From assembly GCF_900120165.1 (NCBI RefSeq), contig NZ_LT635475.1, forward strand, positions 1,550,001 to 1,614,000: 64,000 nucleotides of DNA. Direction: 5' to 3'. The DNA is from Ezakiella massiliensis (GTDB lineage Bacteria; Bacillota; Clostridia; Tissierellales; Peptoniphilaceae). Each line of letters starts with the position of its first letter. Within the stretch, counting starts at the first letter, position 1. The position numbers were made by a program, and so were the translations under genes. Below, one piece after another: positions 2,901 to 57,368 of this stretch. The notes under the pieces were generated by a model. That model was given only the letters and a program-made list of their open reading frames with translations, was not told the origin of the DNA and did not search any database.

Positions 2901-3022
2901 TAATAACAGAAAAGGAAGCTATTTAATATAGCGAACGCGATGTATAAGCCGCGGACTATCCTTCGTTTTAGAGCTACGTCCCATCTCTAAACACTTTACG
3001 CTTTACACCTACTCTGTTATTA
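2901..3022 (-). promoter_or_regulatory. Tetrahydrofolate (THF) riboswitch
   Basis: Read on the minus strand, the leader carries the conserved THF-I riboswitch core: AGAGTAGGTG near the 5' end, GATGGGACGT, AACGAAGGATAGTCCGCGG and a closing CATCGCG. The outer P1 stem is a perfect 9-bp pairing of TAATAACAG (plus-strand 3014-3022) with CTGTTATTA (plus-strand 2901-2909). Its 3' arm touches the ribosome site AAGGAGG. Folding of P1 should therefore hide the ribosome site when folate cofactor is bound, which indicates control at translation. The motif match is from memory, but agreement over the conserved blocks is strong. Confidence 0.93.
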
Positions 3023-3171: not shown

Positions 3172-4062
3172 ATGATTGTCTTAGAGAATATTACTAAAGA
3201 ATACGAGAAGGGGATTGCTGCTTTAGACGATGTTAGTCTAAAGATAGACGATGGCGAATTCGTTTATCTAATGGGCCACTCGGGGGCAGGTAAATCCACT
3301 TTGACCAGATTACTTTTAAAAGAAATCGAACCAACAGAAGGCAAAATTCTTTTAAATGGTAAGGATATAACATATGTGTCTAGACGTCGAGTCCCTTATA
3401 TCAGAAGATATATAGGTACTATATTTCAAGACTTTAGAATTTTGGAGCAAAAGACAGTTTATGAAAACGTGGCCTTTGCTCTGGAAATTTTGGGTGTAAA
3501 GAGAAAGGAAATCAGACGTAGGGTTCCTATTATTTTGAGCCTGGTTGGTCTTAGTGACAAGGCGAAAAATTTTCCAAACGAACTTTCTGGCGGTGAAAAA
3601 CAAAGGGTTGCAATTGCAAGGGCCATTATAAATGAACCCCATATTTTGATTGCAGACGAACCTACCGGGAACTTGGACTTTGAAACCAGTCTTGAAATCA
3701 TGCAAGTCCTAACGGACATCAATAATCGTGGGACGACAATTTTGATGGCAACCCACGCCAAAGATATTGTAAAGCTCTTGCCCCACAGGGTGGTTGTCTT
3801 AAAAGATGGAAAAGTCGTAACAGACACGGCAAACGAAGGTGAAGAGGTTAGCGACATCGACAAGCACGATGTGGATTACGGTAACCAAAAAATTTGCGAA
3901 ATTGATGAGCTTACTGATGAAGACAAGGCTGATTTAAAAGAAGAAGTTTTTTCCAGGACCATAGAAGAAAACGCCGAATCAAAAGCTCCAGAAGAAGAGC
4001 TTGAAGAAGATATGGCCAAGGCTGAAGTGGAAATGATAGACGAGGTGGAAGATGAAATTTAG
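3172..4062 (+). CDS. ftsE: Cell division ATP-binding protein FtsE with acidic C-terminal tail
   Basis: ATPase of the FtsEX complex, which passes ATP-driven conformational change through the membrane to activate peptidoglycan hydrolases at division. Walker A GHSGAGKS is at residues 35-42, the signature LSGGEKQR starts at 138 and Walker B ILIADEP at 158. Family members are usually about 225-230 residues; this one has 296. The extra tail of roughly 70 residues is rich in Glu and Asp and has no motif I recognise. The gene overlaps ftsX by 11 bases and heads a five-gene operon. Confidence 0.95.
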   Translation: MIVLENITKEYEKGIAALDDVSLKIDDGEFVYLMGHSGAGKSTLTRLLLKEIEPTEGKILLNGKDITYVSRRRVPYIRRYIGTIFQDFRILEQKTVYENVAFALEILGVKRKEIRRRVPIILSLVGLSDKAKNFPNELSGGEKQRVAIARAIINEPHILIADEPTGNLDFETSLEIMQVLTDINNRGTTILMATHAKDIVKLLPHRVVVLKDGKVVTDTANEGEEVSDIDKHDVDYGNQKICEIDELTDEDKADLKEEVFSRTIEENAESKAPEEELEEDMAKAEVEMIDEVEDEI

Positions 4063-17014: not shown

Positions 17015-19588
17015 ATGAATATGAACGACAAGATGACTATTAAAACCATCGAGGCCATCAATAAATCCGTCGAATATCAAAAGGACTATAAAAATCCTGA
17101 GATTTCGACCTGGCATTTACTATTGGCAATGCTAAATGGCGACTCGGTGGTAAATTTAATTTTTAATAAACTGGATGTAGACGCAAGGGCTTTGGAGGCA
17201 GATGTCAAGGCGGAGATTATGAAACTCCCACAGGCTTCAGAGGTTAACGCCTACATGTCAAAAGAGATGTCAGATGTTTTGGGTCAGGCCGACAATATCA
17301 GGTCGGACTTTAGGGATTCCTATTTGAGCCTGGAACATATTTTGCTGGCGATGGTTGAAAAATCTCCAGACATAAAAAAGATTTTAAGTAAATATAATGT
17401 AGATAAAAATAAGATTTTGGAGGTGCTTATGGATATTAGAGGAAATCAAAATATAAATACAGATAATCCCGAATCAACCATGGATGCCCTTCAAAGATTT
17501 GGCAGAGATCTGGTTGAAGAGGCAAAATCCGGTAAGATGGATCCTGTAATTGGCCGTGATGATGAGATTAGAGACGTAATTAGAATCCTTTCAAGAAGGA
17601 CCAAGAACAATCCTGTTTTGATTGGCGAACCTGGTGTAGGTAAAACTGCAATTATCGAAGGCCTGGCCCAAAGGATTGTTAAAAACGACGTGCCAACAGG
17701 TTTGAGGGATAAGACAATTTATGAGCTCGATATGGGGGCACTCATTGCAGGTGCTAAGTATCGGGGCGAATTTGAAGAAAGATTAAAGACCGTTTTAAAT
17801 GAAGTTGAAAAATCAGACGGTCAAATTATTTTGTTTGTGGACGAAATCCACACTATAGTTGGCGCTGGCAAGACCGAAGGGTCAATGGATGCCGGCAATA
17901 TGTTAAAGCCGCTCCTCGCTCGTGGTCAGCTCCACATGATTGGCGCCACGACTTTGGATGAGTACAGGCAATATATAGAAAAAGATCCAGCCCTTGAAAG
18001 GCGTTTCCAAAAAGTTTACGTTGGAGAGCCGACGGTTGAAGATACGATTTCAATTTTAAGGGGAATCAAGGAAAAATATGAAGTTCACCATGGGATTAGA
18101 ATTTCAGACGGGGCAGTAATTGCTGCTGCCACTATGAGTAACCGCTATATTACGGACAGGTTTTTACCAGACAAGGCCATTGACCTTATGGACGAAGCCT
18201 GCGCCATGGTTAGGACGCAAATCGATTCGAGTCCAGTGGAAATTGATGAGCTGGAAAGAAAAATTTTACAATTGGAAATCGAAGCTCAAGCTTTGAAAAA
18301 AGAAACAGACGACAAGAGCAAGAAGCGTCTTGAAATTTTGGAAGGTGAGTTGAAGGCTGACAAGGAAAAACACCAAGTCCTAAGAGACAAGTGGGAAGCA
18401 GAGAAGGCTGAGATTGAAAAGTCCAAAGAGCTTAAGGCCAAGATCGACCAAGTCAAAACTGAAATCGAACGCGAAGAAAGAAATTATAATCTAGAAAAGA
18501 TTTCAGAGTTAAAATACGGTGAACTCCCAAGACTTGAACAAGAGTTAAAGGAATTAAATGAGAAAGAATCTGGTGACCTCATGCTAAATGTCGAAGTCAC
18601 TGAAAACGAAATTGCAAAAGTTGTAAACGAATGGACGGGCATACCTGTTAGCAAGCTTTCGCAAACCGACAAGGATAAGCTTTTGAACTTAGGTGACGAA
18701 CTCCACAAGAGGGTTATCGGTCAAGACAAGGCAGTAGATGCAATTGTCGATGCAATTTTAAGGTCGCGGGCAGGATTGCAAAATCAAAATCGTCCTGTGG
18801 GTTCTTTTATCTTCCTCGGTCCAACTGGTGTTGGTAAGACGGAACTTTCAAAGGCCCTCACAGAATATCTTTTCGATGATGAAAAGAATATGGTCCGTAT
18901 CGATATGAGTGAGTATATGGAAAAGTTTTCAGTATCCCGTCTAATTGGTGCGCCTCCAGGATATGTTGGCTACGAAGAAGGCGGCCAACTCACAGAGGCT
19001 GTTCGCAGGAGACCATACTCAGTCGTTTTGTTTGACGAAATTGAAAAGGCCCATCCGGATGTTTTCAATCTGCTCTTGCAAGTTCTTGACGACGGCAGGT
19101 TAACTGATAACCGTGGCCGTGTGGTCGACTTTACCAATACGATTTTGATTATGACTTCAAATATTGGGTCCAGATATTTGCTAGACGGCATTGACGAGAG
19201 TGGCGAAATTTCAAAAGAAGCCGAAGACCAAGTAAACGATGCTCTAAAAGCTTCCTTTAGGCCAGAGTTTTTAAACAGAATTGACGATATTGTAATGTTT
19301 AAGCCACTTACAAGAGACAATATGAAGGCCATTATTGACCTTGAACTTGCAAGCATCAATTCACGCCTAAAGGATAGAAATATCACACTTGAAATCACCG
19401 ATGCATGTGAAGATTTCATTATCGAATCTGCCTACGACCCAGCTTATGGGGCAAGGCCGATAAAGAGATTTATGAATCAAAATCTGGAATCCGCACTTGC
19501 TAAGGCCATTATCAAGGGCGACATCTTGGAAAACACCAAGGTTGTAATCGATGTAGAAAATGATGAATTGAAATTCATCAGCCAATAA
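17015..19588 (+). CDS. clpB: ATP-dependent chaperone ClpB (disaggregase)
   Basis: Hexameric Hsp100 protein that extracts polypeptides from aggregates together with DnaK/DnaJ. Order: Clp_N repeats (1-145), first AAA+ domain with GEPGVGKT, a long coiled-coil middle domain (about 400-530, the ClpB hallmark), second AAA+ with GPTGVGKT and the pore motif GYVGYEEGG, and the C-terminal domain. It has 857 residues from the ATG at 17015; a GTG at 17006 overlapping the dnaJ-type stop is also possible. The site before the ATG is weak, suggesting translational coupling to the J-protein gene. Stress regulation is inferred from the CtsR-like operator upstream. Confidence 0.97.
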
Positions 19589-25952: not shown

Positions 25953-27262
25953 TGGACCCAGGATCGAGTACGGGGTATTTGATTTCACTATTTGTTATCC
26001 TAGTGCTTTCAATAATCACTAGGATGTTAAGAACAGCGGTTATGACTTCGGATTCTACTAAGTTAGATGAGAGACTTCAGTACCAAATTAAGAACAGAGA
26101 AAATGTAATCTCTAAACTTCAGCTCAATTACGAGCTTTTAAAGATAATTTTTGTTATGGTTTTTACAGCCCTAGTAATTAGAAATTTGGACAAGGCTGAT
26201 TTTGATAGGGCAATTGATATTTCAATTTTTATTTGCTCAACCATAGCCGCCATGTTTATATATAATTTAATTACAATTGAATTTGCAGATAGGTATGGGG
26301 CTTATAAGCCAAACCAAAGCTTGAGAACCTTGCAATTTTTCTTGGCTATAAAGATGATTATTATGGAGCCAATTCACAAGCTCCATGTGACTTTGAGCAA
26401 TTTCTTTGCCAAGATAATTGGCCTGCCTAAGGTTACTAGCAAGGTTACCATTGACCAGATAAAAGTTCTGGTTGAAATTGGTGAGAAGCAAGGAATTATA
26501 AATACTGCTGAGAAGGAAATGATAGAAGGGGTTATGGAATTTAACGAAACCGTAGCCGAAGAAATTATGACTCCTCGTACAGAAGTCTTTATGATCGATA
26601 TTAATGCAGAGCCAGAAGAATATCTGGATGACTTGGTCAACCACAGGTATTCAAGGATTCCCGTCTATGATGAAGACATAGATAATATTGTGGGGGTTCT
26701 TTACTTGAAAGACTTTTTGGCCATGGCTTACAAAAAGGGTTTTGACAATATTGATTTAAAACGCCTGATTAAACCTGCCTATTTTATGCCAGAGAGAAAA
26801 AATATTCACATTTTATTCCAAGAAATGCAAAGGTCCAATAAACATATGGCGGTTTTGATGGATGAATATGGTGGATTTTCGGGTATACTTACAATGGAAG
26901 ATTTAACTGAGGAAATTATGGGTGAGATTGATGACGAGTTTGACGATGACGAACCAGACTGGTACGAGCTCACGCAAAATACAGCGGTTATCCAAGGAAC
27001 TACAAGTATAAAGGATGTAAACGATATGCTGGGGATAAATCTCCCGGACGATACGGACGACTACGACACAATTGCGGGCTTTATTATCAGCAGGCTTGGC
27101 TTTATACCTGAAGACAACAAGGTCGATATGATTGACTATGACGGAATAAGAATTAAAATTTTGGAAGTTGAAGACAGGCGGATAAAAAAGGTCAAGATTT
27201 TTATGACCAAGCCCAAGCAAGTTTTAGATGGAAAACAAGAGGAGGAAAAGGATGAGGCTTAG
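25952..27262 (+). CDS. CNNM/CorC (hemolysin-family) membrane protein with CBS domains
   Basis: Inner-membrane protein of 436 residues: CNNM (DUF21) transmembrane domain (about 1-180), a CBS pair (about 205-330, EEIMTPRTEVFMID and HMAVLMDEYGGFSGILTMEDL) and a C-terminal CorC_HlyC domain (about 350-425). Relatives are implicated in magnesium or cobalt export and resistance; hemolysin is a historical label. The ATG overlaps the mnaA stop. Confidence 0.92.
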   Translation: MDPGSSTGYLISLFVILVLSIITRMLRTAVMTSDSTKLDERLQYQIKNRENVISKLQLNYELLKIIFVMVFTALVIRNLDKADFDRAIDISIFICSTIAAMFIYNLITIEFADRYGAYKPNQSLRTLQFFLAIKMIIMEPIHKLHVTLSNFFAKIIGLPKVTSKVTIDQIKVLVEIGEKQGIINTAEKEMIEGVMEFNETVAEEIMTPRTEVFMIDINAEPEEYLDDLVNHRYSRIPVYDEDIDNIVGVLYLKDFLAMAYKKGFDNIDLKRLIKPAYFMPERKNIHILFQEMQRSNKHMAVLMDEYGGFSGILTMEDLTEEIMGEIDDEFDDDEPDWYELTQNTAVIQGTTSIKDVNDMLGINLPDDTDDYDTIAGFIISRLGFIPEDNKVDMIDYDGIRIKILEVEDRRIKKVKIFMTKPKQVLDGKQEEEKDEA

Positions 27263-28175
27263 AAAAGAAGTTTATTTGGTATTGGCAGTAATTTTAATAC
27301 TAGCCCTATTTATTATTTTTAGACCAAAGACAAAGTCAGATTTAGATTCTACTAACCTAGACGGAATTGAAATTAACACGGACACAGCTGACAGCTATAT
27401 AAAGTTTGCTGATAATGACAGGGTTGGACTCTCTAATCCAGCTCCTATGTTTCTTATTGTAAATGGGTCTGTAATTAAAAATCCAGACATCAAAGCTATT
27501 GACGGTTCGGCTATGATACCTGCCGAAAAGTTTGCAGAAATCGTTGGTGCAAAACTTGTGGTTTCTGAAAAAAATGGCGACGAATTTAATTTAAAAGCTG
27601 ACAAGAAAAAAGGCCTACCAGGAGTGACCTTTAGGCTGAATGATGGAAGCTATGAAATCAATGCTAAATCAGAATTTATGGCTGGTAAACCTGTTCGTGA
27701 TGGCAGAACCGTTTACCTTCCTGTAAAGTCATTTTTTGAAGCCTATGGCTATACAGTAACCTATACAAATGGCAAGAAGGTTAAGGTTGATGAATTCCCA
27801 GTAATTCCACTTTACCAACAGCTAATGGTTTACAAGTATGACACAAATAAGAAAGCTCTTACAAAAGAAGAGGCCATCAAAAAAGTTCAAGAGGAGTTAA
27901 AAGTTGCCTACAAGGCCAACTTCAACAAAAAATACAAGGCTCCAGATGATAGCATCGATAGGATGAATCCAAGCCGTGAAGATGAATGGAGAATTAAAAT
28001 CAACGAAGGCCTAGAAGTCAAAGCTGAAAATGATAGATATTATGTAATCCCTGTTGTCTATGATTTTTATGTAGACAAGTACACAGGAGAAATTTATTCT
28101 TTCTATCAAGGACAAACCTTTGTATACAAAAAGTTTGATCCAAAGGCACCAGGCTCACTCGCTTTTCCGGGATAA
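27252..28175 (+). CDS. Membrane-anchored protein with stalk-type domain
   Basis: Protein of 307 residues with an N-terminal signal anchor (VYLVLAVILILALFIIF) and an extracytoplasmic part. Residues about 60-185 resemble the copper-amine-oxidase-type stalk fold (LIVNGSVIKNP, GSAMIPAEKFAEIVGA, GRTVYLPVKSFFEAYG). The remaining 120 residues resemble no enzyme I know. ATG 27252 is preferred over 27228 because GAGGAAAAGG lies immediately before it. It overlaps the CNNM gene by 11 bases and ends the long operon. Confidence 0.8.
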   Translation: MRLRKEVYLVLAVILILALFIIFRPKTKSDLDSTNLDGIEINTDTADSYIKFADNDRVGLSNPAPMFLIVNGSVIKNPDIKAIDGSAMIPAEKFAEIVGAKLVVSEKNGDEFNLKADKKKGLPGVTFRLNDGSYEINAKSEFMAGKPVRDGRTVYLPVKSFFEAYGYTVTYTNGKKVKVDEFPVIPLYQQLMVYKYDTNKKALTKEEAIKKVQEELKVAYKANFNKKYKAPDDSIDRMNPSREDEWRIKINEGLEVKAENDRYYVIPVVYDFYVDKYTGEIYSFYQGQTFVYKKFDPKAPGSLAFPG

Positions 28176-28218
28176 AATTTCATATAATTTAATCTAAGTG
28201 ATTAAAGAAAATATATTT

Positions 28219-28256
28219 AGCACTTGCTCTTTTATAGATGCAGGTGCTTTTTCTTT
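28219..28256 (+). terminator. Terminator of the 19.7-28.2 kb operon
   Basis: AGCACTTGC (28219-28227) pairs with GCAGGTGCT (28240-28248) with one G-U, followed by TTTTCTTTT. Confidence 0.85.
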
Positions 28257-28325
28257 TCAAAAAAATTTTTGCCGCTACTGTTAAAATTCCCTCAGATGTA
28301 GTATAATATAGTCGAGGTGAACATT

Positions 28326-28892
28326 ATGGATAAGAAACAGCTAAGAGAATCTTTTTTGAAAAAAAGAGACCAACTTGATTCTGAATATAAGTTTGAAGCT
28401 GATGAGAAAATTTTAGACAAGTTACTCAGTTTAAAATCCTACATGCATGCAAATACAATTTGTTCATTTGTAAGCTTTAGGTCGGAAGTTGACACTCATG
28501 ACTTTATAGAGGAGTCACTCAGACGGGGCAAGAGAGTTTTGGTGCCAGTTGTAGATAAAGCTACAAACACCTTGGTCCTTTGCGAAATAAGGAGTTTTTT
28601 GGAACTCAAAGAGGGCTACATGGGCATATTGGAACCAGAAGTTAAAGAGGAAAATATTGTTGGCCCAGAGGCAATTGATCTTTGCATTGTTCCTGGAGCT
28701 GTTTTTGATGATTTTGGTTATAGGATTGGCTATGGTGGCGGTTATTACGATAGGCTGCTTCCTGAGCTTAGGTCTGATGCTAAAACAGTTGGTATCTGTT
28801 ATGATATTCAACGCACTGAGAAGTTAGCACCAGATGAATATGATCAAAAAGTGCAAACCATAGTTACCGAAACAAAGGTACTAGATATATAA
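28326..28892 (+). CDS. 5-formyltetrahydrofolate cyclo-ligase
   Basis: Converts 5-formyl-THF to 5,10-methenyl-THF with ATP, recycling a storage or by-product folate. It has 188 residues with RESFLKKRDQL at the start, FVSFRSEVDTHDFI, and the signature IVPGAVFDDFGYRIGYGGGYYDR. ATG 28326 is chosen over a GTG at 28317, which lies inside the ribosome site GAGGTGA. A TATAAT at 28302-28307 is a probable -10 box. It is followed after 10 bases by a CofE-like gene. Confidence 0.95.
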   Translation: MDKKQLRESFLKKRDQLDSEYKFEADEKILDKLLSLKSYMHANTICSFVSFRSEVDTHDFIEESLRRGKRVLVPVVDKATNTLVLCEIRSFLELKEGYMGILEPEVKEENIVGPEAIDLCIVPGAVFDDFGYRIGYGGGYYDRLLPELRSDAKTVGICYDIQRTEKLAPDEYDQKVQTIVTETKVLDI

Positions 28893-28902
28893 GGAGGATA
28901 TT

Positions 28903-30093
28903 ATGTCAAGATTTGTTGGAACTGTCTCAAGAGGAATTAGGACTAAAATTATTAAACAAGGCGATGACCTGGTTAATATTGTATTAAACTCAGTAATGGA
29001 TGCTGTTGCTGCTGATAATATCCCCTTGCACGATAGAGATATAGTAGGTGTAACCGAAGCAGTACTTGCTAGGAGCCAAGGCAACTATGCAACTACCGAT
29101 CAAATTGGCAAGGATGTTAGAAATAAATTTGGCGGTGGCCACATTGGTCTTATCCATCCAATTTTAAGTAGAAATAGGTTTTCAGTTTGTTTGAAGGGCA
29201 TAGCCAAGGGCGTGGACAAGATTACTCTCATGCTATCATATCCTGCAGACGAAGTTGGCAACCATTTGCTATCATATGAGCAATTGGAAAAGGCTGGAAT
29301 TTATGATTATAGTCAGCTCTTTACCGAAGAAGAATACACCAAGCTCTTTGGTAGGAGCAAACACCCATTTACAAATGTCGACTACATTCAATTCTATCAC
29401 GACTTAATTGAAGCTGAAGGTTGTGAATGTGAAATTATTTTCTCCAATAAACCAACCGATATTTTAAAATATACAAATAATGTTTTGACTGCAGATATCC
29501 ATTCTAGAAAGAGGACTAAGAAAGCTCTAGAAGTTGAAGGAGCAAATGTATTATCAATTGCAGATATTTTAAATGAAAGCGTTGACGGCAGCGGTTATAA
29601 TGAAGAATATGGTCTACTTGGTGCAAACATGGCCACAGAAGACAAGGTTAAACTCTTCCCGCGTGAATCATTTAAATTTGCTAACGACTTGCAAGCAGCC
29701 TTCAAAGAAATAACAGGCAAAAATATTGAATGCTTGATTTATGGCGATGGTGCTTTCAAGGATTCTGTTGGACAAATTTGGGAGCTAGCTGACCCAGTTG
29801 TAAGCCCTGGCTACACCAAGGGTTTGGAAGGCGTTCCTAATGAATTGAAATTAAAATACTTGGCTGACAATGATTTCAAAGATTTAAGGGGCGATGATTT
29901 AAGTCACGCAATCGTAGATGCAATCAAGCACAAGGAAGCCCAAGCCCTAGATGAAAACGCTAGACTTGGTACAACACCAAGAAAGCTTACGGACTTAATC
30001 GGCAGCCTTTGCGATCTAACAAGTGGATCTGGAGACAAGGGCACACCAATTATTTTAATCCAAGGATATTTCGACAGCTTAGCTGCTGAATAA
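28903..30093 (+). CDS. CofE-like (coenzyme F420-0:L-glutamate ligase family) protein
   Basis: Protein of 396 residues with the COG1478-type fold: RTKIIKQGDDLVNIVLNSV, HDRDIVGVTEAVLARSQGNY, the LSRNRFSVCLKGIAKG segment and the YGDGAFKDSVGQIWELADP metal/nucleotide region. True CofE adds gamma-linked glutamates to F420, but there is no sign of F420 genes here, and this type of bacterium is not expected to make F420. The co-transcribed 5-formyl-THF cyclo-ligase instead suggests a gamma-glutamyl ligase acting on folate (inference). It ends at a long terminator. Confidence 0.85.
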   Translation: MSRFVGTVSRGIRTKIIKQGDDLVNIVLNSVMDAVAADNIPLHDRDIVGVTEAVLARSQGNYATTDQIGKDVRNKFGGGHIGLIHPILSRNRFSVCLKGIAKGVDKITLMLSYPADEVGNHLLSYEQLEKAGIYDYSQLFTEEEYTKLFGRSKHPFTNVDYIQFYHDLIEAEGCECEIIFSNKPTDILKYTNNVLTADIHSRKRTKKALEVEGANVLSIADILNESVDGSGYNEEYGLLGANMATEDKVKLFPRESFKFANDLQAAFKEITGKNIECLIYGDGAFKDSVGQIWELADPVVSPGYTKGLEGVPNELKLKYLADNDFKDLRGDDLSHAIVDAIKHKEAQALDENARLGTTPRKLTDLIGSLCDLTSGSGDKGTPIILIQGYFDSLAAE

Positions 30094-30107
30094 TTATAAA
30101 AATATTT

Positions 30108-30158
30108 TCCACAGGCAGACTTATGTAATTTATAAGTCTTTCCTGTGGATTTTTATTT
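30108..30158 (+). terminator. Terminator after the CofE-like gene
   Basis: TCCACAGG (30108-30115) pairs with CCTGTGGA (30142-30149), with an inner AGACTTAT / ATAAGTCT stem and then TTTTTATTTT. Confidence 0.9.
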
Positions 30159-30169
30159 TGCAAATTATC

Positions 30170-30198
30170 TTGATATTATTATACGTATATGGTATATT
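30170..30198 (+). promoter_or_regulatory. Promoter of the MBOAT-SGNH pair
   Basis: TTGATA (30170-30175), 17-bp spacer, TATATT (30193-30198), leaving a 5' leader of about 130 bases in which I see no known motif. Confidence 0.65.
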
Positions 30199-30333
30199 GA
30201 AACTGAATTTAAATGTACCTCTTTAATAAGATGATTCATTTTAAAAGGATTTATAATAATGTATTCTTAAATTAAGGATTTACATTTGGAAAAATAAATT
30301 TTCGTAATTATAAAATATTTAAGGAGATTATTT

Positions 30334-31770
30334 ATGCAGTTTAATTCAATTTTATATATTGTTTTTTTCACAATTGTATGCTTGGTATATTTTTTGTTGG
30401 CGGACAAGTTTAAAAGGCCATTTTTATTAGCTGCGAGCTATTTCTTTTACTCTTGCTGGAATTTTAAATATTCACTCTTAATGCTTTTTAGCACGGTGGT
30501 GACTTTTTTTACTGGAAAATTTATGGCAAGAGAAAATTCAATCAAGAGAAAAAAATTTCTCCTTGGTCTATGTTTTTTTATAAATCTTTCTATACTTTAT
30601 ATTTTTAAGTATTTTACATTTTCAGTAAATTTTTTAAATAAAATTCTTGGCCTATTAAATTTAAATTTAGATATTGGCCCACTTAACTTGTTGCTTCCTG
30701 TAGGGATTTCTTTTTATACTTTTCAGGCGCTTGGATACATAATAGATATTTATAGGGGAGATATAGAGGTCGAGAAAAATTTTGTTAATTATGCCCTCTT
30801 TGTCTCTTTTTTTCCACAATTAGTTGCTGGTCCAATTGAGAGGTCAAAAAATCTCTTGAGGCAAATCGACAGCCTTGGAAACAGAAGATACGAGAATTTA
30901 TCCAAGGGATTTCTATATATCCTATGGGGATTTTTCTTAAAACTTGTTATCGCAGATAGGTCAGCAATTTTTGTAAACCAAATATATAGCGGATACCAAG
31001 CCTATTCCTATATTTATTTAATATTGGCTGCAGTTTTATTTTCCTTTCAAATTTACTGCGATTTTTACTCTTATTCAATTATCGCCAAGGGGTCGGCAAA
31101 AATTTTAGGCTATGATTTGATGGATAATTTTCAGGCTCCATATCTTTCAAAATCCATTACAGAATTTTGGAGACGATGGCATATTTCCCTTTCAACCTGG
31201 TTTAAAGATTATCTTTATATACCCTTGGGTGGCAATAGGAGAGGATCTTTGAGGAAGCATTTTAATGTTCTTGTAGTATTTTTGGTAAGTGGACTTTGGC
31301 ATGGAGCAAATTGGACCTTTGTTTTATGGGGACTAATCCATGGTTTTTTCAATATTTTAGAAGACAGTTTGAAAACTTTTACAAAACAATTTAGAAATAA
31401 TTTTATCTACAGGAACCTTAGAAGGCTGATTACTTTTATTATAGCTATTATAAGTTTTGTTATATTTAGGAGCAATAATATTGGCCAAGCAGGGGAATTT
31501 CTTCTTGGAATTCTAAGGAGGCAGGGATCTACAATCGATATTGACAAAGCCCTCTATCTCAAAGATGCCGGAGTTTTGCTTTGTGCACTGGCAGTATTAC
31601 TCTTTGTAGATATATTTACTTATAATAAAATCAAACTTGTAGATATAATAGAAAAACAGGCCTTGTATATAAGGTGGATAATATATCTTGCTTTAATAGT
31701 AGTAACTGTAATTTTTGGCGTATATGGACCTGGATATAGTGAAATACAATTCATTTATTTTCAATTCTAG
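30334..31770 (+). CDS. MBOAT-family O-acyltransferase (AlgI/DltB-like)
   Basis: Multi-spanning membrane acyltransferase of 478 residues. It has the MBOAT core: LLLPVGISFYTFQALGYIID, FFPQLVAGPIERSKNLL, SITEFWRRWHISLSTWFKDY, and the catalytic His in VFLVSGLWHGANWTF. Family members move acetyl or alanyl groups across the membrane for transfer to extracellular polymers. There are no dltA/dltC genes nearby, and the next gene is an SGNH-like extracellular protein, so polysaccharide or teichoic acid O-acetylation is more likely than D-alanylation (inference). Confidence 0.93.
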   Translation: MQFNSILYIVFFTIVCLVYFLLADKFKRPFLLAASYFFYSCWNFKYSLLMLFSTVVTFFTGKFMARENSIKRKKFLLGLCFFINLSILYIFKYFTFSVNFLNKILGLLNLNLDIGPLNLLLPVGISFYTFQALGYIIDIYRGDIEVEKNFVNYALFVSFFPQLVAGPIERSKNLLRQIDSLGNRRYENLSKGFLYILWGFFLKLVIADRSAIFVNQIYSGYQAYSYIYLILAAVLFSFQIYCDFYSYSIIAKGSAKILGYDLMDNFQAPYLSKSITEFWRRWHISLSTWFKDYLYIPLGGNRRGSLRKHFNVLVVFLVSGLWHGANWTFVLWGLIHGFFNILEDSLKTFTKQFRNNFIYRNLRRLITFIIAIISFVIFRSNNIGQAGEFLLGILRRQGSTIDIDKALYLKDAGVLLCALAVLLFVDIFTYNKIKLVDIIEKQALYIRWIIYLALIVVTVIFGVYGPGYSEIQFIYFQF

Positions 31771-31782
31771 GCAGGTGAAGAG

Positions 31783-32733
31783 ATGAAAAAAGGAAAAAGA
31801 ATTTTAAAAGTAATAGGTTTTTTATTTATACTTGGCCTGATTTTTGCAAGGCTGAATCTAATATTTATCAGGAAAGCCAATGTCAAGCCCATGGATATGA
31901 TGAATAAAATTGTAGGATATTTTAATGAAAAAGAAAAGCACGATGTCCTATTTTTTGGAACTTCTCAGGCCTATACTTCTTTTGACACGGAGTTTTTAGC
32001 CGAAAAGGGTCTATCATCATATGTGCTAGCTACTCAGCAGCAACCTATAGAGGCGAGTTATTATATAAGGGAGGCCATAAAAAGATCCAGTCCCAAGCTT
32101 ATTTATATAGATGTTTTGGATGTCCTTACATTTAATCAGGTAGATGAGGGAATATCACATTCTTATACGGATTATTTTCCTATGTCTGTAAATAAACTCC
32201 TGATGATAAAACAAACTCTACCCAAAGATCAATGGGCAGAGCACCTAATGCCGCTTATTAAATACCATTCAAGATGGAAGGAGCTTGATAGGACTGATAT
32301 TTTTGCTAAGTGGAAAGATTATCATGACGATTTAAATGGATTTGTAAAATTGACAAATGATAAAAATGGAGTCAAAGATGATCCTGAGCTCAATGAAATT
32401 TTGGCTACTGCAGTTTCAAAAGCTGGGGACAATAATTTTAGACAAGAAAAATATGAAGTATTAAAGAAAATATATGATTATGGAAATAAAAAGGGAGTAA
32501 AAGTGGTTTTTCTAAAAACTCCTGTATACCTGGAGGATTTATATGACAAAAATATAGGCCCACTTGATGACTACCTACAAAGTATAGGATCAAAATTACT
32601 CGATCTCACAAAAGTTTCTAAAGAAATTGATTTTGAAGGAAAAGATTATTTTGATGTTTTGCATTTATCTGGCAGTGGGGCCAGAAAGTTCACAGAATAC
32701 TTCTATGAAAACTATATAGTTAATGATTTATAA
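31783..32733 (+). CDS. Membrane-anchored SGNH-hydrolase-like protein, MBOAT partner
   Basis: Protein of 316 residues with an N-terminal signal anchor (VIGFLFILGLIFARLNLIFI) and an extracellular domain resembling DltD/AlgX-type SGNH proteins. The nucleophile block is VLFFGTSQAYTSF (Ser in GTS) and the C-terminal Asp/His block is YFDVLHLSGSGARKFTEY. It probably completes acyl transfer onto a surface polymer using groups delivered by the preceding MBOAT protein. GGTGAAGAG precedes the ATG, 12 bases after the MBOAT stop. Confidence 0.87.
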   Translation: MKKGKRILKVIGFLFILGLIFARLNLIFIRKANVKPMDMMNKIVGYFNEKEKHDVLFFGTSQAYTSFDTEFLAEKGLSSYVLATQQQPIEASYYIREAIKRSSPKLIYIDVLDVLTFNQVDEGISHSYTDYFPMSVNKLLMIKQTLPKDQWAEHLMPLIKYHSRWKELDRTDIFAKWKDYHDDLNGFVKLTNDKNGVKDDPELNEILATAVSKAGDNNFRQEKYEVLKKIYDYGNKKGVKVVFLKTPVYLEDLYDKNIGPLDDYLQSIGSKLLDLTKVSKEIDFEGKDYFDVLHLSGSGARKFTEYFYENYIVNDL

Positions 32734-32775
32734 TTTTTGCATTTAACCCTAGTAAAATTGGACAGATAATATTTC

Positions 32776-32821
32776 TCACAGGTAGATTTATATAAATTAA
32801 ATTTTTACCTGTGATTTTTTA
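32776..32821 (+). terminator. Terminator after the SGNH-like gene
   Basis: Perfect 9-bp stem TCACAGGTA (32776-32784) / TACCTGTGA (32806-32814), then T6. Confidence 0.9.
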
Positions 32822-32890
32822 TGTAAAGATAATTAAAGGTAAATTCTTAAAAAAAATATACAAAATAACTTTTTATTTGTTAAAAATTTG

Positions 32891-32919
32891 TTGATTTTTT
32901 TAAGCAAATGTGTTAAAGT
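32891..32919 (+). promoter_or_regulatory. Probable promoter of gltS-hutD
   Basis: TTGATT (32891-32896), 17-bp spacer, TAAAGT (32914-32919). The -10 box is imperfect. Confidence 0.5.
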
Positions 32920-32985
32920 AAAGTTGTAGATAAAAATACTGGGTCCATACACTTGGGCTTGGTAAAATTAAAGGGAGGGAAAGAT

Positions 32986-34233
32986 ATGACTATTGAAAGA
33001 ATAGACGGCATTTTAAACTTTAATGCGGACATGACAATGACAGCGGCTATGGCAGCTCTGCTATTGGTTTTCGGCTATTTTGTAAGGGACAAGGTCAAAT
33101 TCCTAAAAAAATATTGTATCCCAGCACCTGTTGTTGGCGGATTCATATTTATGTTTGTAACAATGATTGGTCACTTGACTAGTACATTTTACTTCAACTT
33201 TGACACAACCCTACAAAGCTTTTTTATGCTTGCATTCTTTACAACAGTTGGACTTGGAGCAAGTTTAGCTATCCTTAAGAAGGGCGGAATTTTATTAATC
33301 ATTTATTGGTTGGTTGCAGGCGTAGTTTCCATTTTCCAAAACACAATTGGAATTGGAGTTGGTAAACTAATTGGACTTGAAGCTCCATATGCACTTTTAA
33401 CTAGTGCTATACCACTTATCGGTGGACACGGAGCAGCCCTTAGCTATGGGAATACCTTTGCTGGCATGGGTTATGAAGCAGCCCCACTAGTTGGTGCAGC
33501 AGCAGCAACCTTTGGTTTAATTATAGCAGTTATGGTTGGTGGACCTACTGCTCGTAGACTGATTGTTAAAAACAATTTAAAACCAGACGAATCTGAAAAC
33601 GCTGGCGATATTGATGAAAGTATCGCAAACATCAACGCCTCAACTGGACAAAAGTTATCAAGTCTTGACGTTACTAAAAACGTAACAGCTATCCTATTTT
33701 GTATGGCTCTAGGAACTGTACTTTCAAAGAAATTTGGACAACTTATTAACATGGACTTCCCAACATACGTTGGTGCTATGTTCGTTGCAGTTATCTTGAG
33801 AAACTTAAATGAAAAATTCAAATTCTATAAATTCGACTTCGGTTTAGTTGATGGAATTGGCGATGTAGCTTTAGGTTTATACCTATCCATGGCTATGATG
33901 TCCTTGATGTTATGGCAACTATTTGGCGTAGCAGGCAAGATGTTTGTAGTCCTATTTGTTCAAGTAATTTTCTTGGTACTATTTGCTTACTTTGTAGTAT
34001 TCAGAATACTTGGCAAAAACTACGACGCAGCAGTTATGTGTGCAGGTTTACTTGGACACGCACTTGGAGCTACTCCAACAGCTATAGTTAACTTAACAGC
34101 AGTTAATGAACAATACGGTATGAGTAGAAAGGCTATGATGATTGTACCAATCGTTGGTGCTTTCCTTGTAGATATTATTTACCAACCTCAAACGATTTGG
34201 TTTATCAAAACATTCGTGGAGAAAATAAACTAA
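32986..34233 (+). CDS. gltS: Sodium/glutamate symporter
   Basis: Membrane carrier importing glutamate with sodium. It has 415 residues and about ten helices in two inverted halves. Family motifs are present: CIPAPVVGGF, the re-entrant loop IPLIGGHGAALSYG and its partner GLLGHALGATPTAIVN. ATG 32986 is chosen because AAAGGGAGGG lies 7-9 bases upstream; a start at 32953 would add eleven non-conserved residues. Only one base separates it from the hutD-like gene. Glutamate is a main fermentation substrate in related anaerobic cocci. Confidence 0.95.
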   Translation: MTIERIDGILNFNADMTMTAAMAALLLVFGYFVRDKVKFLKKYCIPAPVVGGFIFMFVTMIGHLTSTFYFNFDTTLQSFFMLAFFTTVGLGASLAILKKGGILLIIYWLVAGVVSIFQNTIGIGVGKLIGLEAPYALLTSAIPLIGGHGAALSYGNTFAGMGYEAAPLVGAAAATFGLIIAVMVGGPTARRLIVKNNLKPDESENAGDIDESIANINASTGQKLSSLDVTKNVTAILFCMALGTVLSKKFGQLINMDFPTYVGAMFVAVILRNLNEKFKFYKFDFGLVDGIGDVALGLYLSMAMMSLMLWQLFGVAGKMFVVLFVQVIFLVLFAYFVVFRILGKNYDAAVMCAGLLGHALGATPTAIVNLTAVNEQYGMSRKAMMIVPIVGAFLVDIIYQPQTIWFIKTFVEKIN

Positions 34234-34234
34234 T

Positions 34235-34777
34235 ATGAGAGAAATTAAAAAGACTGATTTTAAAGTGACAGAATGGTCGGGTGGCAAGACTACCCAACTA
34301 TACATCTTGCCAGAGGGAGCCGATTTTTCAAAGAGAGATTTTGATTTTAGGATATCCTCTGCAAGTTTTACAGACACCAGCTCAAACTTTTCAGATTTTT
34401 CTGGTTACCAAAGGTATATACTCCCACTACAAGGCTTTATTGACGTCGAGTACGAGGGCTTATACGACCGCCACCTAGAACCTTTTGAAGTAGAATACTT
34501 CGATGGTAGGTGGAAAACTTATTCAGAAAATTCCCTGGACACCCTTGACTATAACTTCATAGTTAGAAATGGATCAAATGCGACCATGGAAATTGTAAGA
34601 GAGGCCAAGGAGGTTAAGGCTGATGGCTATAAGCTATATGTATTTTCACCGGAGGCCTACAAGGCTGAAATAAATGACGAGTCAAAGGAAATGAACGCCT
34701 GGAGCCTGTATATAATTGAGGAAGATTTTAAAATAACAGACTTGAAAAAGCCTATTATAATATGTAAATATAAGTAG
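34235..34777 (+). CDS. hutD: HutD/Ves-family cupin protein
   Basis: Protein of 180 residues matching the HutD family: VTEWSGGKTTQLYILPEGAD, FDFRISSASF, FSDFSGYQRYILPLQG. HutD accompanies histidine-utilisation genes in many bacteria and is thought to limit the pathway by binding a small metabolite; its biochemistry is not settled. Here no other hut gene is in view, and it is co-transcribed with gltS. Because histidine degradation ends in glutamate, the pairing suggests a sensor or binder in glutamate/histidine metabolism (inference). Confidence 0.88.
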   Translation: MREIKKTDFKVTEWSGGKTTQLYILPEGADFSKRDFDFRISSASFTDTSSNFSDFSGYQRYILPLQGFIDVEYEGLYDRHLEPFEVEYFDGRWKTYSENSLDTLDYNFIVRNGSNATMEIVREAKEVKADGYKLYVFSPEAYKAEINDESKEMNAWSLYIIEEDFKITDLKKPIIICKYK

Positions 34778-34786
34778 GAAATTAGA

Positions 34787-34821
34787 AACTGCTTAGTCCT
34801 TAAAGGATGGGCAGTTTTTTA
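34787..34821 (+). terminator. Terminator after hutD
   Basis: AACTGC (34787-34792) pairs with GCAGTT (34811-34816), with an inner GTCC / GGAT pairing and a T6 run. Confidence 0.82.
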
Positions 34822-35050
34822 TTGGCTGAAAAATTAAAAATAAAAGATCTTTTAAGTTGATTTTTAAAAATAAAAGGCAAAAATAAAAAAATTTCTAAAA
34901 ATATTTTTTATTTTTTAAAATAAATTTAAAAACTCATAAACATTGAAACAACTGGGATTGGAGAATTTAAAATACGATTTAACTTTATAAAATAATTAAT
35001 TTATTTAAAAAATACTTTAATGTAGTGTTTAAAATAAAAATATGGGGGTA
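34822..35050. other. AT-rich spacer upstream of the structured RNA
   Basis: About 230 bases of very AT-rich sequence (many AAAATAAA and TTTAAAA runs) without a frame carrying a ribosome site. I see no gene here. Confidence 0.6.
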
Positions 35051-35056
35051 TATAAT
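35051..35056 (+). promoter_or_regulatory. Possible -10 box for the structured RNA
   Basis: TATAAT at 35051-35056, about 115 bases before the outer stem of the RNA. No good -35 at 16-18 bp (TTTAAA at best), so the true start is uncertain. The leader between has several AAAGATA repeats. Confidence 0.35.
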
Positions 35057-35169
35057 AACCACAAGGAAGAAGATTTTATAGAAAAAACTTATCCAATCTA
35101 AAAGATACAATCAAAAGATAGAATCTAAAAGATATAAAGAAAAATATAAAATCTACCTTGATCACATAG

Positions 35170-35487
35170 TTCGTAGCAACTAAAAGAAAAAACAATAAAT
35201 TCCCGAAAGATTAAAAATATGGTGGCAGCGCAAACCAAAAGGTTAACGCACACAAACTTAAAGAAGAGTTAAAGATTAAGAGAAAAGGGAATGGAAAGAC
35301 TTGAACTTTAAAAATTTAATAAGAAGGTAAGCGATGGATTTATCAGAACTGAAAGGAGCTGGTAATATGACAAGAAAGTTTATAATTAACAATAGAGAAA
35401 TTAAGGAGGCTAGGAGATGAGACCAAATAAAAACGACCGTTGCTACGAATAAAACCCCACTAAGTAGAGATATTTAGTGGGGTTTTT
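35170..35487 (+). ncRNA. Large structured noncoding RNA with own terminator (raiA-type candidate)
   Basis: No frame with a ribosome site covers this stretch, yet it is strongly structured. A perfect 11-bp outer stem joins TTCGTAGCAAC (35170-35180) to GTTGCTACGAA (35439-35449) across 258 bases. Inside are ATTCCC/GGGAAT (35199-35204 with 35287-35292), a hairpin GCG..AACC-AAAA-GGTT..CGC (35228-35249), AACT/AGTT and TAATT/AATTA hairpins, and unpaired purine-rich stretches typical of conserved RNAs. A terminator follows two bases after the stem. The size, closing stem, adjacent terminator and GGTGGCAGCGC / GGGAATGG blocks remind me of the raiA RNA class of anaerobic Bacillota. That identity is from memory and unverified. 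Confidence 0.72.
35451..35487 (+). terminator. Terminator of the structured RNA
   Basis: CCCCACTAA (35455-35463) pairs perfectly with TTAGTGGGG (35474-35482), flanked by AAAA and TTTTT. Confidence 0.93.
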
Positions 35488-35800
35488 AGATTGCAAAATT
35501 ACTTTCATTTAAACTCTTGACAGGGATAATATAATTTTTTTGAGAAAAGCTGTTTAAATTAAGGCAAAAGTAATTAAAATATTTTATGGTTTATATTAAC
35601 AAAGACTATATTATTTTGAATATGAATATTAAAGTATAAATAATATTACTAGTTTTAAAATAAAGATAAGCCAAAGACCTGCAATCACAAGCTTGAGACT
35701 TTTACAAAAACTTTGCTCTCATATAGATAACAATTGCTTTTATTAAAATCTAGCTAGATATAGATATAATTTTATTAAGCTATAGATAAAATATTTTTGA
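35488..35800. other. AT-rich spacer without a gene
   Basis: Between the RNA terminator and the promoter of the ABC operon. No ribosome site plus frame, and no clear fold beyond short AT hairpins. A TTGACA at 35517-35522 is too close to the next TATAAT to make a promoter. Confidence 0.6.
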
Positions 35801-35807
35801 AAAAGTA

Positions 35808-35836
35808 TTTACAAAATTATTTCAATGTGCTATAAT
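35808..35836 (+). promoter_or_regulatory. Promoter of the DUF3798 ABC operon
   Basis: TTTACA (35808-35813), 17-bp spacer, extended -10 TGCTATAAT with TATAAT at 35831-35836. Transcription would start near 35843, giving a leader of about 260 bases. A weaker second promoter, TTGTTG (36052-36057) 17 bp before TATAAT (36075-36080), would give a short leader. Confidence 0.8.
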
Positions 35837-35842
35837 GTATTT

Positions 35843-36060
35843 AGTTAATTAAAGCAAGACTTTTATAAAAGGAAATCTAATATTGTTGTTAGAGTGAACC
35901 TGATCAAGGCTTTATAAAAATATAAAATATATAAGTGGTCTAGCTTTAATTAAAGATTATTTTTAGCAGGTGGTTCCGATGGGATTTTAAAAACAGATGA
36001 TTTTTCATCTTGCGTACTTAAAGATTACAGGCACAAAAATATGGAGTTTATTTGTTGCCA
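35843..36060 (+). promoter_or_regulatory. Structured 5' leader of the DUF3798 ABC operon, riboswitch candidate
   Basis: A perfect 11-bp stem joins TTAATTAAAGC (35845-35855) and GCTTTAATTAA (35943-35953), followed inward by GAC/GTC. A second stem TTTTATAAA (35861-35869) / TTTATAAAA (35911-35919) encloses about 40 bases that look aptamer-like (GGAAATCT...GAGTGAACCTGATCAAGGC). Downstream are AGATGA/TCATCT (35995-36010) and a GGCACAAA/TTTGTTGCC hairpin. It does not match any riboswitch I know. AGCAGGTGGTTCCG (35965-35978) recalls a T-box core but differs at the conserved ACC. Mechanism unknown. Confidence 0.6.
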
Positions 36061-36103
36061 TCAATTTGACAACTTATAATAAATAAAACACTAGGAGGAT
36101 ATT

Positions 36104-37366
36104 ATGAAAAAGTTATTAGCAATTTTATTAGCTATGGCTATGGTATTTTCATTAGCAGCTTGTGGCAAAAAGCCAGCTGGCGATGCTAACACAGAAAATA
36201 CCGCAAAAACAGACGGTGAAGAAGCACCATTCCACATCGGAATCTGCACCGGTACAGTCTCTCAATCAGAAGACGAACAAAGGGGTGCTGAATCTATGCT
36301 AACCAAATATGGTGATTCAAAAGATGGCGGATTTATAACACTTAAAAACTACCCAGATAACTATATGGCTGAACAAGAAACAACAATTCAACAAATCGTT
36401 TCTTTCGCTGACGATCCAAAGATGAAGGTCGTTGTAGTTAACCAAGGCCCTCCAGGAACAGCAGCTGCATTTAAGCAAATTAAGGAAAAAAGACCTGATA
36501 TCCTTTGCTTTGTAGCTAACTCCCAAGAAGACCCTAACTTAATCGAAGGTATTGCTGACCTAGTAGTTGACCCTGACCAAATTAACAGGGGATACTTGAT
36601 TCCACTTGCTGCTCAAAAGATGGGCGCAAAGAAATTTGTTCACGTTACATTCCCAAGACACATGTCAATTGAACTTTTAAGTTTACGTAAAGATATTATG
36701 GAAGCTACATGTGATAAGATTGGTATGGAATTTATTATGGAAACTGCACCAGACCCAATGAGTGATATTGGTATTCCAGGAGCACAAAACTTTATCCTTG
36801 AACAAATGCCAGCATGGGTTAAACAATATGGTAAAGAAACAGCTTTCTTTGCTACAAACGACTCTCACACAGAACCAATGCTATTAAGAGTTGCTGAACT
36901 CGGCGCATACTTTGTAGAACAAGACTTACCATCACCTATCCTTGGATACACAGGAGCTCTTTCAGTTGATGTTAAAGACGCTGCAGGTGACTGGCCAGAA
37001 ATCCTAAAGAGAGTTGAAGAAAAAGCAGTAGAAATGGGGGCTGAAGGCCGCATGGGTCTATGGGCATTCTCATTTGGCTTCTCAACAACACAAGCTTTAG
37101 CTGAAATTGGTAAGAGAACTGTTGAAGGAACAGCTGACTACAAGAAACCAGAAGACTTCAAAAAAGTTCTAGAAGAATTCACACCAGGAGCAGTATGGGG
37201 TGTTACAACTTATGTTGATAGAGTTTCTCGTGAAGAAAAGAAAAACCACTATCTAACACTTCAAGACACATACGTACTTGGCAAAGGCTATCTAGGAATG
37301 ACCGATGTTGAAGTTCCAGATGTATATAAGCTACTAGACGAATATGAAGCAAAGAAAAACAAATAA
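36104..37366 (+). CDS. DUF3798-type solute-binding lipoprotein
   Basis: Exported lipoprotein of 420 residues. The signal peptide ends in a lipobox (SLAACGKK, Cys20). The mature part has a periplasmic-binding-protein plan: HIGICTGTVSQSEDEQRGAE at the first strand, KMKVVVVNQGPPGTAAAFKQI, AAQKMGAKKFVHVTFPRHMS and AFFATNDSHTEP. It resembles the DUF3798 family, whose ligand is not established; the fold and gene order recall nucleoside- or sugar-binding BMP/RbsB proteins. AGGAGG precedes the ATG. It heads a four-gene importer operon behind a long structured leader. Confidence 0.85.
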   Translation: MKKLLAILLAMAMVFSLAACGKKPAGDANTENTAKTDGEEAPFHIGICTGTVSQSEDEQRGAESMLTKYGDSKDGGFITLKNYPDNYMAEQETTIQQIVSFADDPKMKVVVVNQGPPGTAAAFKQIKEKRPDILCFVANSQEDPNLIEGIADLVVDPDQINRGYLIPLAAQKMGAKKFVHVTFPRHMSIELLSLRKDIMEATCDKIGMEFIMETAPDPMSDIGIPGAQNFILEQMPAWVKQYGKETAFFATNDSHTEPMLLRVAELGAYFVEQDLPSPILGYTGALSVDVKDAAGDWPEILKRVEEKAVEMGAEGRMGLWAFSFGFSTTQALAEIGKRTVEGTADYKKPEDFKKVLEEFTPGAVWGVTTYVDRVSREEKKNHYLTLQDTYVLGKGYLGMTDVEVPDVYKLLDEYEAKKNK

Positions 37367-37404
37367 TTAGTAGGCTTCTAAAAACAAGTAATTAATTTGG
37401 ACCC

Positions 37405-37445
37405 AAGGCTGACCTCACAAATAAAGTGCTGGGTCAGCCTTTACT
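37405..37445 (+). terminator. Attenuating hairpin between binding protein and ATPase genes
   Basis: Perfect 10-bp stem AAGGCTGACC (37405-37414) / GGTCAGCCTT (37432-37441) followed only by a short TTTACT tract. Such partial terminators often keep the binding protein more abundant than the membrane subunits. It may also protect the 3' end of a processed first-gene message. Confidence 0.7.
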
Positions 37446-47297: not shown

Positions 47298-47302
47298 ATA
47301 TT

Positions 47303-47378
47303 TGCACTAGGGGTGCCCGATTGGGCTGAGATTAAACCCTAAACCTGATCCAGGTAATGCTGGCGGAGGGAAGTTGTA
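47303..47378 (+). promoter_or_regulatory. Thiamine pyrophosphate (TPP) riboswitch
   Basis: Contains all conserved TPP aptamer blocks in order: GGGGTGCCC (47310-47318), GGGCTGAGAT, ACCCT, AACCTGATCCAGGTAATGCTGG and CGGAGGGAAG. Downstream, TACCTC (47388-47393) pairs with GAGGTA (47410-47415), which contains most of the ribosome site AAGGAGG and is followed by a T7 run. That hairpin can act either as a terminator or as a ribosome-site sequester when TPP is bound. Confidence 0.97.
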
Positions 47379-47422
47379 TTTTTATTGTACCTCTTAAGCA
47401 TGTGTGAAGGAGGTATTTTTTT

Positions 47423-56845: not shown

Positions 56846-57368
56846 AGAAATGCTCTTTACTGAAGAAGAAATTTCAAAAAAAGTAAAAGAAATGGGATCA
56901 GAAATTACCCACGACTTTATGGATAAAGATTTAATGGTAATCGGCATTTTAAAAGGCTCTTTTATCTTTATGGCAGACCTAGTCAGACAAATTAATTTGC
57001 CAGTCTTGGTTGATTTTATGAGCTTATCAAGTTATGGGGCAAGTTCTAAGTCGACTGGTGAAGTTAGGATTTTAAAAGACCTGGACTTTTCAGTTGAAGG
57101 CAGGGACGTACTTGTAGTCGAAGACATTGTAGACACTGGCTACACTTTAAAATACTTGCAAGACAATTTGTCCAGGCGTGGGGCAAATTCAGTTAAGTTT
57201 GCAACCTTTTTGGATAAAAAAGAAGCAAGAAAAACTGACGTCCAGCTGGATTATGTTGGCTTCATTGCGCCAAATGATTTCATAGTTGGCTATGGACTTG
57301 ATTATGCGGAGAGCTATAGAAATCTCCCATATATAGCCAGCTTAAAGGAGGAGATTTATAAAATATGA
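56829..57368 (+). CDS. hpt: Hypoxanthine phosphoribosyltransferase
   Basis: Salvages hypoxanthine and guanine to IMP and GMP with PRPP. Its 179 residues carry the PRPP motif VLVVEDIVDTGYTLKYL, GILKGSFIFMADL, and the purine-contact segment DYVGFIAPNDFIVGYGLDY. AAGGAGG precedes the ATG, which lies inside tilS. The order tilS-hpt-ftsH is conserved widely in Bacillota. Confidence 0.97.
   Translation: MNKAIKEMLFTEEEISKKVKEMGSEITHDFMDKDLMVIGILKGSFIFMADLVRQINLPVLVDFMSLSSYGASSKSTGEVRILKDLDFSVEGRDVLVVEDIVDTGYTLKYLQDNLSRRGANSVKFATFLDKKEARKTDVQLDYVGFIAPNDFIVGYGLDYAESYRNLPYIASLKEEIYKI

Follow-up and report, generated by a model that had tools for sequence, protein, structure and literature searches.

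The genus Ezakiella comprises human-associated anaerobes, and the 64-kb window analysed here (the whole stretch of DNA under study) raises the question of which kind of RNA is encoded in one of its intergenic gaps. The gap measures 1326 nt (34778-36103). It is bounded upstream of the RNA candidate by hutD (34235-34777, Pfam HutD) and downstream by a gene for a DUF3798 protein, which starts at 36104, precedes ABC transporter genes and lies on the same strand as the candidate. The longest frame wholly inside the gap has 42 codons and is on the minus strand. A preliminary description had placed a large structured RNA in this gap and had labelled it raiA-type. The presence of such an RNA is supported by the anatomy and the folding statistics reported below: positions 35062-35487 appear to constitute a stand-alone structured RNA gene on the plus strand, restricted to one lineage and regulatory, a reading to which a probability of roughly 0.55 is assigned. 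The raiA label, by contrast, is not supported, and on our best reading the element is an orphan structured RNA candidate confined to a single lineage.

Anatomy of the element

The coordinates of the features are collected in Table 1. The core of the element, domain II, has a G+C content of 0.33, against 0.18 in the part of the gap upstream and 0.23 in the part downstream, and a purine fraction of 0.68 on the plus strand. It is closed by the long-range stem P1, which had been described as a perfect 11-bp stem with arms 258 bases apart, and inspection of the sequence bore this out (11 bp, 258 nt between the arms). The significance of P1 was assessed by dinucleotide shuffling of the gap 34778-36103. 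In 4 of 2000 shuffles there was an 11-mer inverted repeat that contained five or more G/C and had its arms 30-400 nt apart, the G/C condition having been chosen after the stem had been seen; without that condition, such a repeat was present in 1369 of 2000 shuffles. P1 is thus unusual by its composition and not by its length alone. The window contains two repeats of the P1 type, P1 itself and another one at 19075-19353.

A perfect terminator had been placed two bases beyond P1. A terminator does exist there: its stem begins 1-2 nt past P1 and all 16 of its 16 positions are paired, but one of the pairs is G-U, and the stem is therefore not strictly perfect. A scan with a simple terminator pattern listed the interval 35451-35487 on the minus strand only, because on the plus strand four of the five T residues sit within the stem.

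At the other end of the element, a promoter-like site was found by consensus scanning. Sites of this kind numbered 14 on the two strands of 34700-36150, compared with 9.2 +/- 2.4 in shuffled sequences, a background against which a single site is weak evidence. The site and the fold nevertheless agree on the position of the 5' end, since domain I begins 6 nt past the -10 box. Domain I, a 5' terminal hairpin absent from the preliminary description, consists of an outer stem (CAAGG/CCTTG), a 10-bp stem (35071-35080 / 35145-35154) and an inner part that consists of repeats resembling AATCTAAAAGATA. Folded alone, 35060-35169 reached -17.0 kcal/mol (z -4.49, 0 of 300 shuffles at least as good), and the pair probabilities of the two outer stems were 0.84-1.0. 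The AATCTAAAAGATA unit is not enriched in the genome, where it occurs at 26 places with at most one mismatch, compared with 25 for the reversed control.

Table 1. Features of the RNA candidate, in window coordinates
Feature	Position	Strand	Details
Promoter-like site	35028-35056	+	TTTAAA-17-TATAAT; consensus scan; transcription would start at about 35062-35064
Domain I, 5' terminal hairpin	35062-35160	+	From fold, pair probabilities and tandem repeats
Domain II	35170-35449	+	Closed by P1; 12th pair G35169-T35450 as G-U
P1 arms	35170-35180 / 35439-35449	+	TTCGTAGCAAC / GTTGCTACGAA
P2 subdomain	35199-35292	+	ATTCCC/GGGAAT; encloses hairpin GTG-GCG-AACC/GGTT-CGC-CAC and a small hairpin
Possible micro-ORF A	35334-35420	+	28 codons, or 17 from internal ATG 35367 with AAAGGAG upstream
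Local hairpin	35340-35365	+	TTATCAG/CTGGTAA; from pair probabilities; occupies the spacer between the first Shine-Dalgarno and ATG 35367
Possible micro-ORF B	35417-35452	+	11 codons; AAGGAGG upstream; read from sequence
Intrinsic terminator	35451-35487	+	Stem 35451-35466 / 35471-35486; loop GAGA; T run 35483-35487

Folding statistics and choice of strand

The fold of 35060-35490 had an energy of -88.3 kcal/mol, compared with -53.9 +/- 4.4 for its shuffles (z -7.84, 0 of 100 at least as good), an excess that comes mostly from the terminator, P1 and domain I. Several nested helices had been attributed to the region closed by P1, and this claim stood for one part of it. The P2 subdomain folded better than its shuffles (z -3.19, 1 of 300 at least as good), with pair probabilities of 0.79-1.0, whereas 35293-35438 folded no better than shuffled sequence (z +0.11, 158 of 300 at least as good) and the P1 interior as a whole (35181-35438) was not significant (z -1.35, 30 of 300 at least as good).

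Both orientations of 35160-35500 folded well, with z -6.28 on the plus strand and z -4.17 on the minus strand (0 of 100 shuffles at least as good for the latter), which is what a stem plus a terminator would give either way. As the minus strand also beats its shuffles, folding alone leaves the strand undecided. Three other features favour the plus strand: its purine bias, the promoter-like site and the 5' hairpin that agrees with this site.

Distribution among relatives

Only one homologue was found, in genome G001, where the sequence is identical to the element over 280 of 280 columns. This genome is most likely Ezakiella peruensis, as judged from the contig of strain M6.X2, the closest named relative encountered, in which the 3326 nt of the G001 locus recur without a single change. 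The available text of PMC5834339 presents E. peruensis M6.X2 as a human gut anaerobic coccus. Since the sole homologue is identical, there is no variation by which covariation or coding constraint could be displayed.

Searches by blastn of 130 genomes of the family returned a full-length match in the source genome and G001 only; some match at E<=0.001 was present in 26 of the 130, these two counted. In a set of 61 relatives that included the source genome, the matches other than those two were short. Beyond G001, none of the matches listed was longer than 79 nt, the best E values being 5.2e-5 in the 61 relatives and 6.5e-6 in the 130 family genomes, and these short AT-rich matches were treated as chance. 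Plain blastn recovered simulated copies in 9-10 of 10 cases at identities of at least 70%, in 6 of 10 at 65% and in 1 of 10 at 60%. Given this drop below 70% identity, homologues of greater age may have escaped the search.

R1, a covariance model for domain II, was constructed from the two identical sequences with a structure assigned by the analyst, and was run over several genome samples that overlap, those of more than 40 genomes being searched with stricter filters. Three of the samples covered the order (249 genomes), the class (391) and near relatives (40); in these the source genome and G001 scored 345 bits and all others at most 26.5 bits. Over 398 genomes of the phylum, a sample from which G001 was absent, presumably because it was not drawn, the model recovered the source genome, with all others at or below 25.3 bits. 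Weak matches ranged from 18.8 to 26.5 bits elsewhere in genomes and reached up to 16.6 bits elsewhere in the window. Of these matches, L221 (26.5 bits) falls within an open frame of 264 codons and L222 (24 bits) within one of 1045 codons; a third, L210 (25.3 bits), aligns at the start of a gene that we take to be divIVA.

Exact words from the element were also traced. The 17-mer TGGTGGCAGCGCAAACC was found in 55 stretches of genome contigs and its inner 16-mer in 42 viral stretches, and among these 97 loci only that of E. peruensis (L107, the M6.X2 contig) continues like the element, as judged by eye from the printed contexts. A search of plasmids with the gap gave no match. A phage origin was rejected: the 1326-nt query gave two matches, at E 0.03, and neither covers the RNA, each lying downstream of it. 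Inspection by eye of 600-1500 nt upstream of the DUF3798 gene in the loci of eight relatives (L072-L079), taken from 30 fetched among 41 genomes with a DUF3798 match, revealed no equivalent RNA, and none of the papers found to mention both Ezakiella and noncoding RNA looked relevant.

Divergence from E. peruensis

Comparison with E. peruensis revealed no differences over 34963-35623 (0/661), in noncoding surroundings that carry 7/184 differences before this RNA block and 28/480 after it (35624-36103). At the level of the alignment, the block looks like a product of constraint. Recent DNA exchange or recombination could also explain its identity, because the DUF3798 gene shows no differences either (0/1263).

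Divergence from E. peruensis is mosaic over 26769-37439 of the window, amounting to about 8% in 26769-30154, 3.0% in gltS and 4.4% in hutD, a pattern that suggests DNA exchange between lineages. The segment 35624-36103 was the most divergent of seven regions counted and is flanked by two stretches with 0 differences. Within this segment, the DUF3798 ABC operon has a strong promoter-like site of its own (TTTACA-17-TATAAT, 35808-35836) and a leader of roughly 265 nt, in which a long-range inverted pair, TTAATTAAAGC/GCTTTAATTAA, was noticed by eye near 35843-35953. The leaders of the DUF3798 operons at five loci from the genus or family (L072-L076) seemingly start with a stem directly behind the -10 box, also by eye, with sequences unlike one another. 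Regulation of the DUF3798 transporter through its leader is possible on these grounds.

Possible micro-ORFs within the closed domain

The preliminary description had denied that any coding frame of the region has a ribosome site, which proved wrong. The arrangement AGGAG-8 nt-ATG occurs twice, at ATG 35367 and ATG 35417, and both sites fall within 35293-35438. The start of ORF B overlaps the stop of ORF A (ATGA), and its frame runs through the 3' arm of P1 to stop at the terminator. Two or more Shine-Dalgarno/ATG sites were present in 31 of 3000 shuffles, in a test set up after the sites had been seen. An 18-mer at the first Shine-Dalgarno site is also found in one viral contig, where it precedes the ATG of an unrelated-looking frame.

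These sites lead to a different view of the locus, namely that it produces mainly a message for micro-proteins, comparable to small-protein or type I toxin messages, in which ORF A and ORF B would be the translated parts and the untranslated ends, consisting of domain I, P1 and the terminator, would stabilise the message. Two strong Shine-Dalgarno/ATG pairs within 431 nt, at the shuffle frequency just given, together with the stop-start overlap, argue for it, and the half of the domain that holds both ORFs is not structured beyond chance. However, the putative peptides are tiny (28 or 17 residues for A and 11 for B), hydrophilic and, by eye, not toxin-like. The ORF A peptide had no Pfam match at E<=1 and, by tblastn, no match in phages and a single one in plasmids, at E=10. 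The spacer of the first Shine-Dalgarno is predicted to be paired in the local hairpin, and the two genomes, identical here, show no difference that would bear on coding. Translation as the main function of the locus is, in our judgement, rather unlikely, and this view overlaps with a dual-function form of the structured RNA gene favoured here.

Other explanations of the locus

The locus might also hold no functional RNA at all, being a decayed or chance AT-rich gap beside an ordinary terminator. Half of the interior does fold like shuffled sequence, conservation is seen only at one identical locus, and the good folding of both strands is what any terminator with an inverted repeat would yield. 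Against this, the z-scores of the whole unit (-7.84) and of domain I (-4.49) and the 4/2000 frequency of P1 are jointly hard to explain by decay, and absence of function is considered unlikely.

An attenuator would link the element to its downstream neighbour: a ribosome ending ORF B at 35452 would cover the terminator's 5' arm, so that polymerase could continue towards the DUF3798 ABC operon. The stop codon of ORF B overlaps the first terminator pairs and the operon lies on the same strand, but the operon starts about 615 nt past the terminator, behind a better promoter-like site of its own, and the fold shows no pairing in competition with the terminator, which leaves attenuation with a very small chance of being correct.

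Similarly slight is the case for a miniature mobile element, or a remnant of one, with the 11-bp arms of P1 as terminal inverted repeats. The perfection of this repeat and the patchy occurrence of the element would fit, but the genome has no exact copy of the arm beyond these two and blastn finds no second copy of the element; no clear target duplication was seen by eye, and the phage and plasmid collections searched yielded no relative of the RNA. With its arms unrepeated and the RNA single-copy in the genome, this explanation was rejected.

Relation to raiA RNAs

A scan of the window against Rfam returned only the TPP and THF riboswitches above gathering scores, and neither tRNA nor tmRNA was found in the 64 kb. 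The TPP riboswitch lies at 47299-47388 on the plus strand and the THF riboswitch at 2927-3018 on the minus strand. The preliminary description had proposed a search with the Rfam covariance model of raiA and had counted the lack of a hit as the first half of the evidence that would speak against it; the second half concerned the stem arms in relatives, and in the one relative found the arms are unchanged. This search was carried out and gave no match: a permissive scan of 34780-36100 contained no raiA at E<=10, and six of its seven weak matches fell over the terminator hairpin. With the gathering score of RF03072 (101.3 bits) as criterion, none of six genomes of the genus exceeded the cut-off, a count to be read alongside 14 control genomes that also gave 0 and thus provided no positive control. 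The sole RF03072 match at E<=10 in the genus scored 9.1 bits and is located at a different place, in genome G001. Wide conservation across Bacillota and Actinomycetota, as in raiA, was not observed either, the element being present in two genomes only among those searched. Although a large RNA with a terminator in a member of the anaerobic Bacillota recalls raiA (ModT), these scans and the two-genome occurrence make it barely conceivable that the element is a raiA RNA or a close relative.

Proposed mode of action

P1, domain I, the P2 subdomain, the terminator, the promoter-like site, the Shine-Dalgarno/ATG pairs and the two-genome occurrence were all obtained by computation, and a working model of the stand-alone structured RNA gene can be formulated from them. 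RNA polymerase would start near 35062 and stop at about 35487, on the plus strand, to produce a transcript of about 425 nt whose 5' end may be protected by the hairpin of domain I. P1, of 11-12 bp, would close the domain, and the adjacent terminator would protect the 3' end. The closed domain would then combine a folded 5' half with an open, purine-rich 3' half, and the latter may act by pairing with or binding a partner, or it may encode one or two micro-peptides, as in a dual-function RNA. We regard the RNA as probably regulatory.

Candidate targets were sought among 52 longer frames of the window, a small part of the genome, by computing the energy of duplexes with the beginning of each frame, and no convincing one emerged from this set. 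The best duplexes had z -2.95 at 57365 (0 of 60 shuffles) and z -2.29 at 3761 (3 of 60), and the neighbouring genes gave values of -0.51 to +1.31. A bolder proposal, quite improbable in our estimation, would be a new class of dual-function structured RNA, of which the element is the first member, confined to the E. peruensis lineage, in which translation of the two micro-ORFs opens and closes P1 and ribosomes set the fold.

If transcribed, the element would give a poorly studied group of human-associated anaerobes an orphan structured RNA gene, and it would caution against annotating each large intergenic RNA of anaerobic Bacillota as raiA. The anatomy described here predicts transcript ends near 35062 and 35487, plus translation within the closed domain.

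Comparison with known systems

RNAIII of Staphylococcus aureus is a dual-function, structured RNA of several hundred nucleotides, with a small reading frame, a long-range closing helix and a terminator. The candidate resembles it in all these respects, namely size, structure, small frame, closing helix and terminator, whereas a relation in sequence is not expected and the translation of the element is only putative. The OLE, ROOL and GOLLD classes have Rfam models, and the element differs from them in having no match to any Rfam family at gathering score. In the available text of PMC12286853 these classes appear as large ornate bacterial RNAs, and the element shares with them the character of a structured bacterial RNA bigger than ordinary sRNAs (PMC12286853).

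Bacterial sRNAs rarely occur outside their own genus or family, according to the accessible text of PMC11706538. A promoter-like site of its own, a terminator and a narrow distribution liken the element to such species-specific regulatory sRNAs (PMC11706538), from which it differs by its greater length and by a 280-nt domain under one long-range helix.

The same source, in the text available, describes raiA/ModT as an RNA with eight helices, two pseudoknots and a consensus length of about 215 nt, conserved in >2,500 species and with an abundance that rivals that of ribosomal RNA (PMC11706538). The element differs from it in its 280-nt domain organised by P1 and P2 and in its occurrence in two genomes. 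What the element has in common with raiA/ModT is the character of a structured intergenic RNA of anaerobic Bacillota, and for raiA, too, terminators are predicted near the 3' end in some clostridia (PMC11706538).
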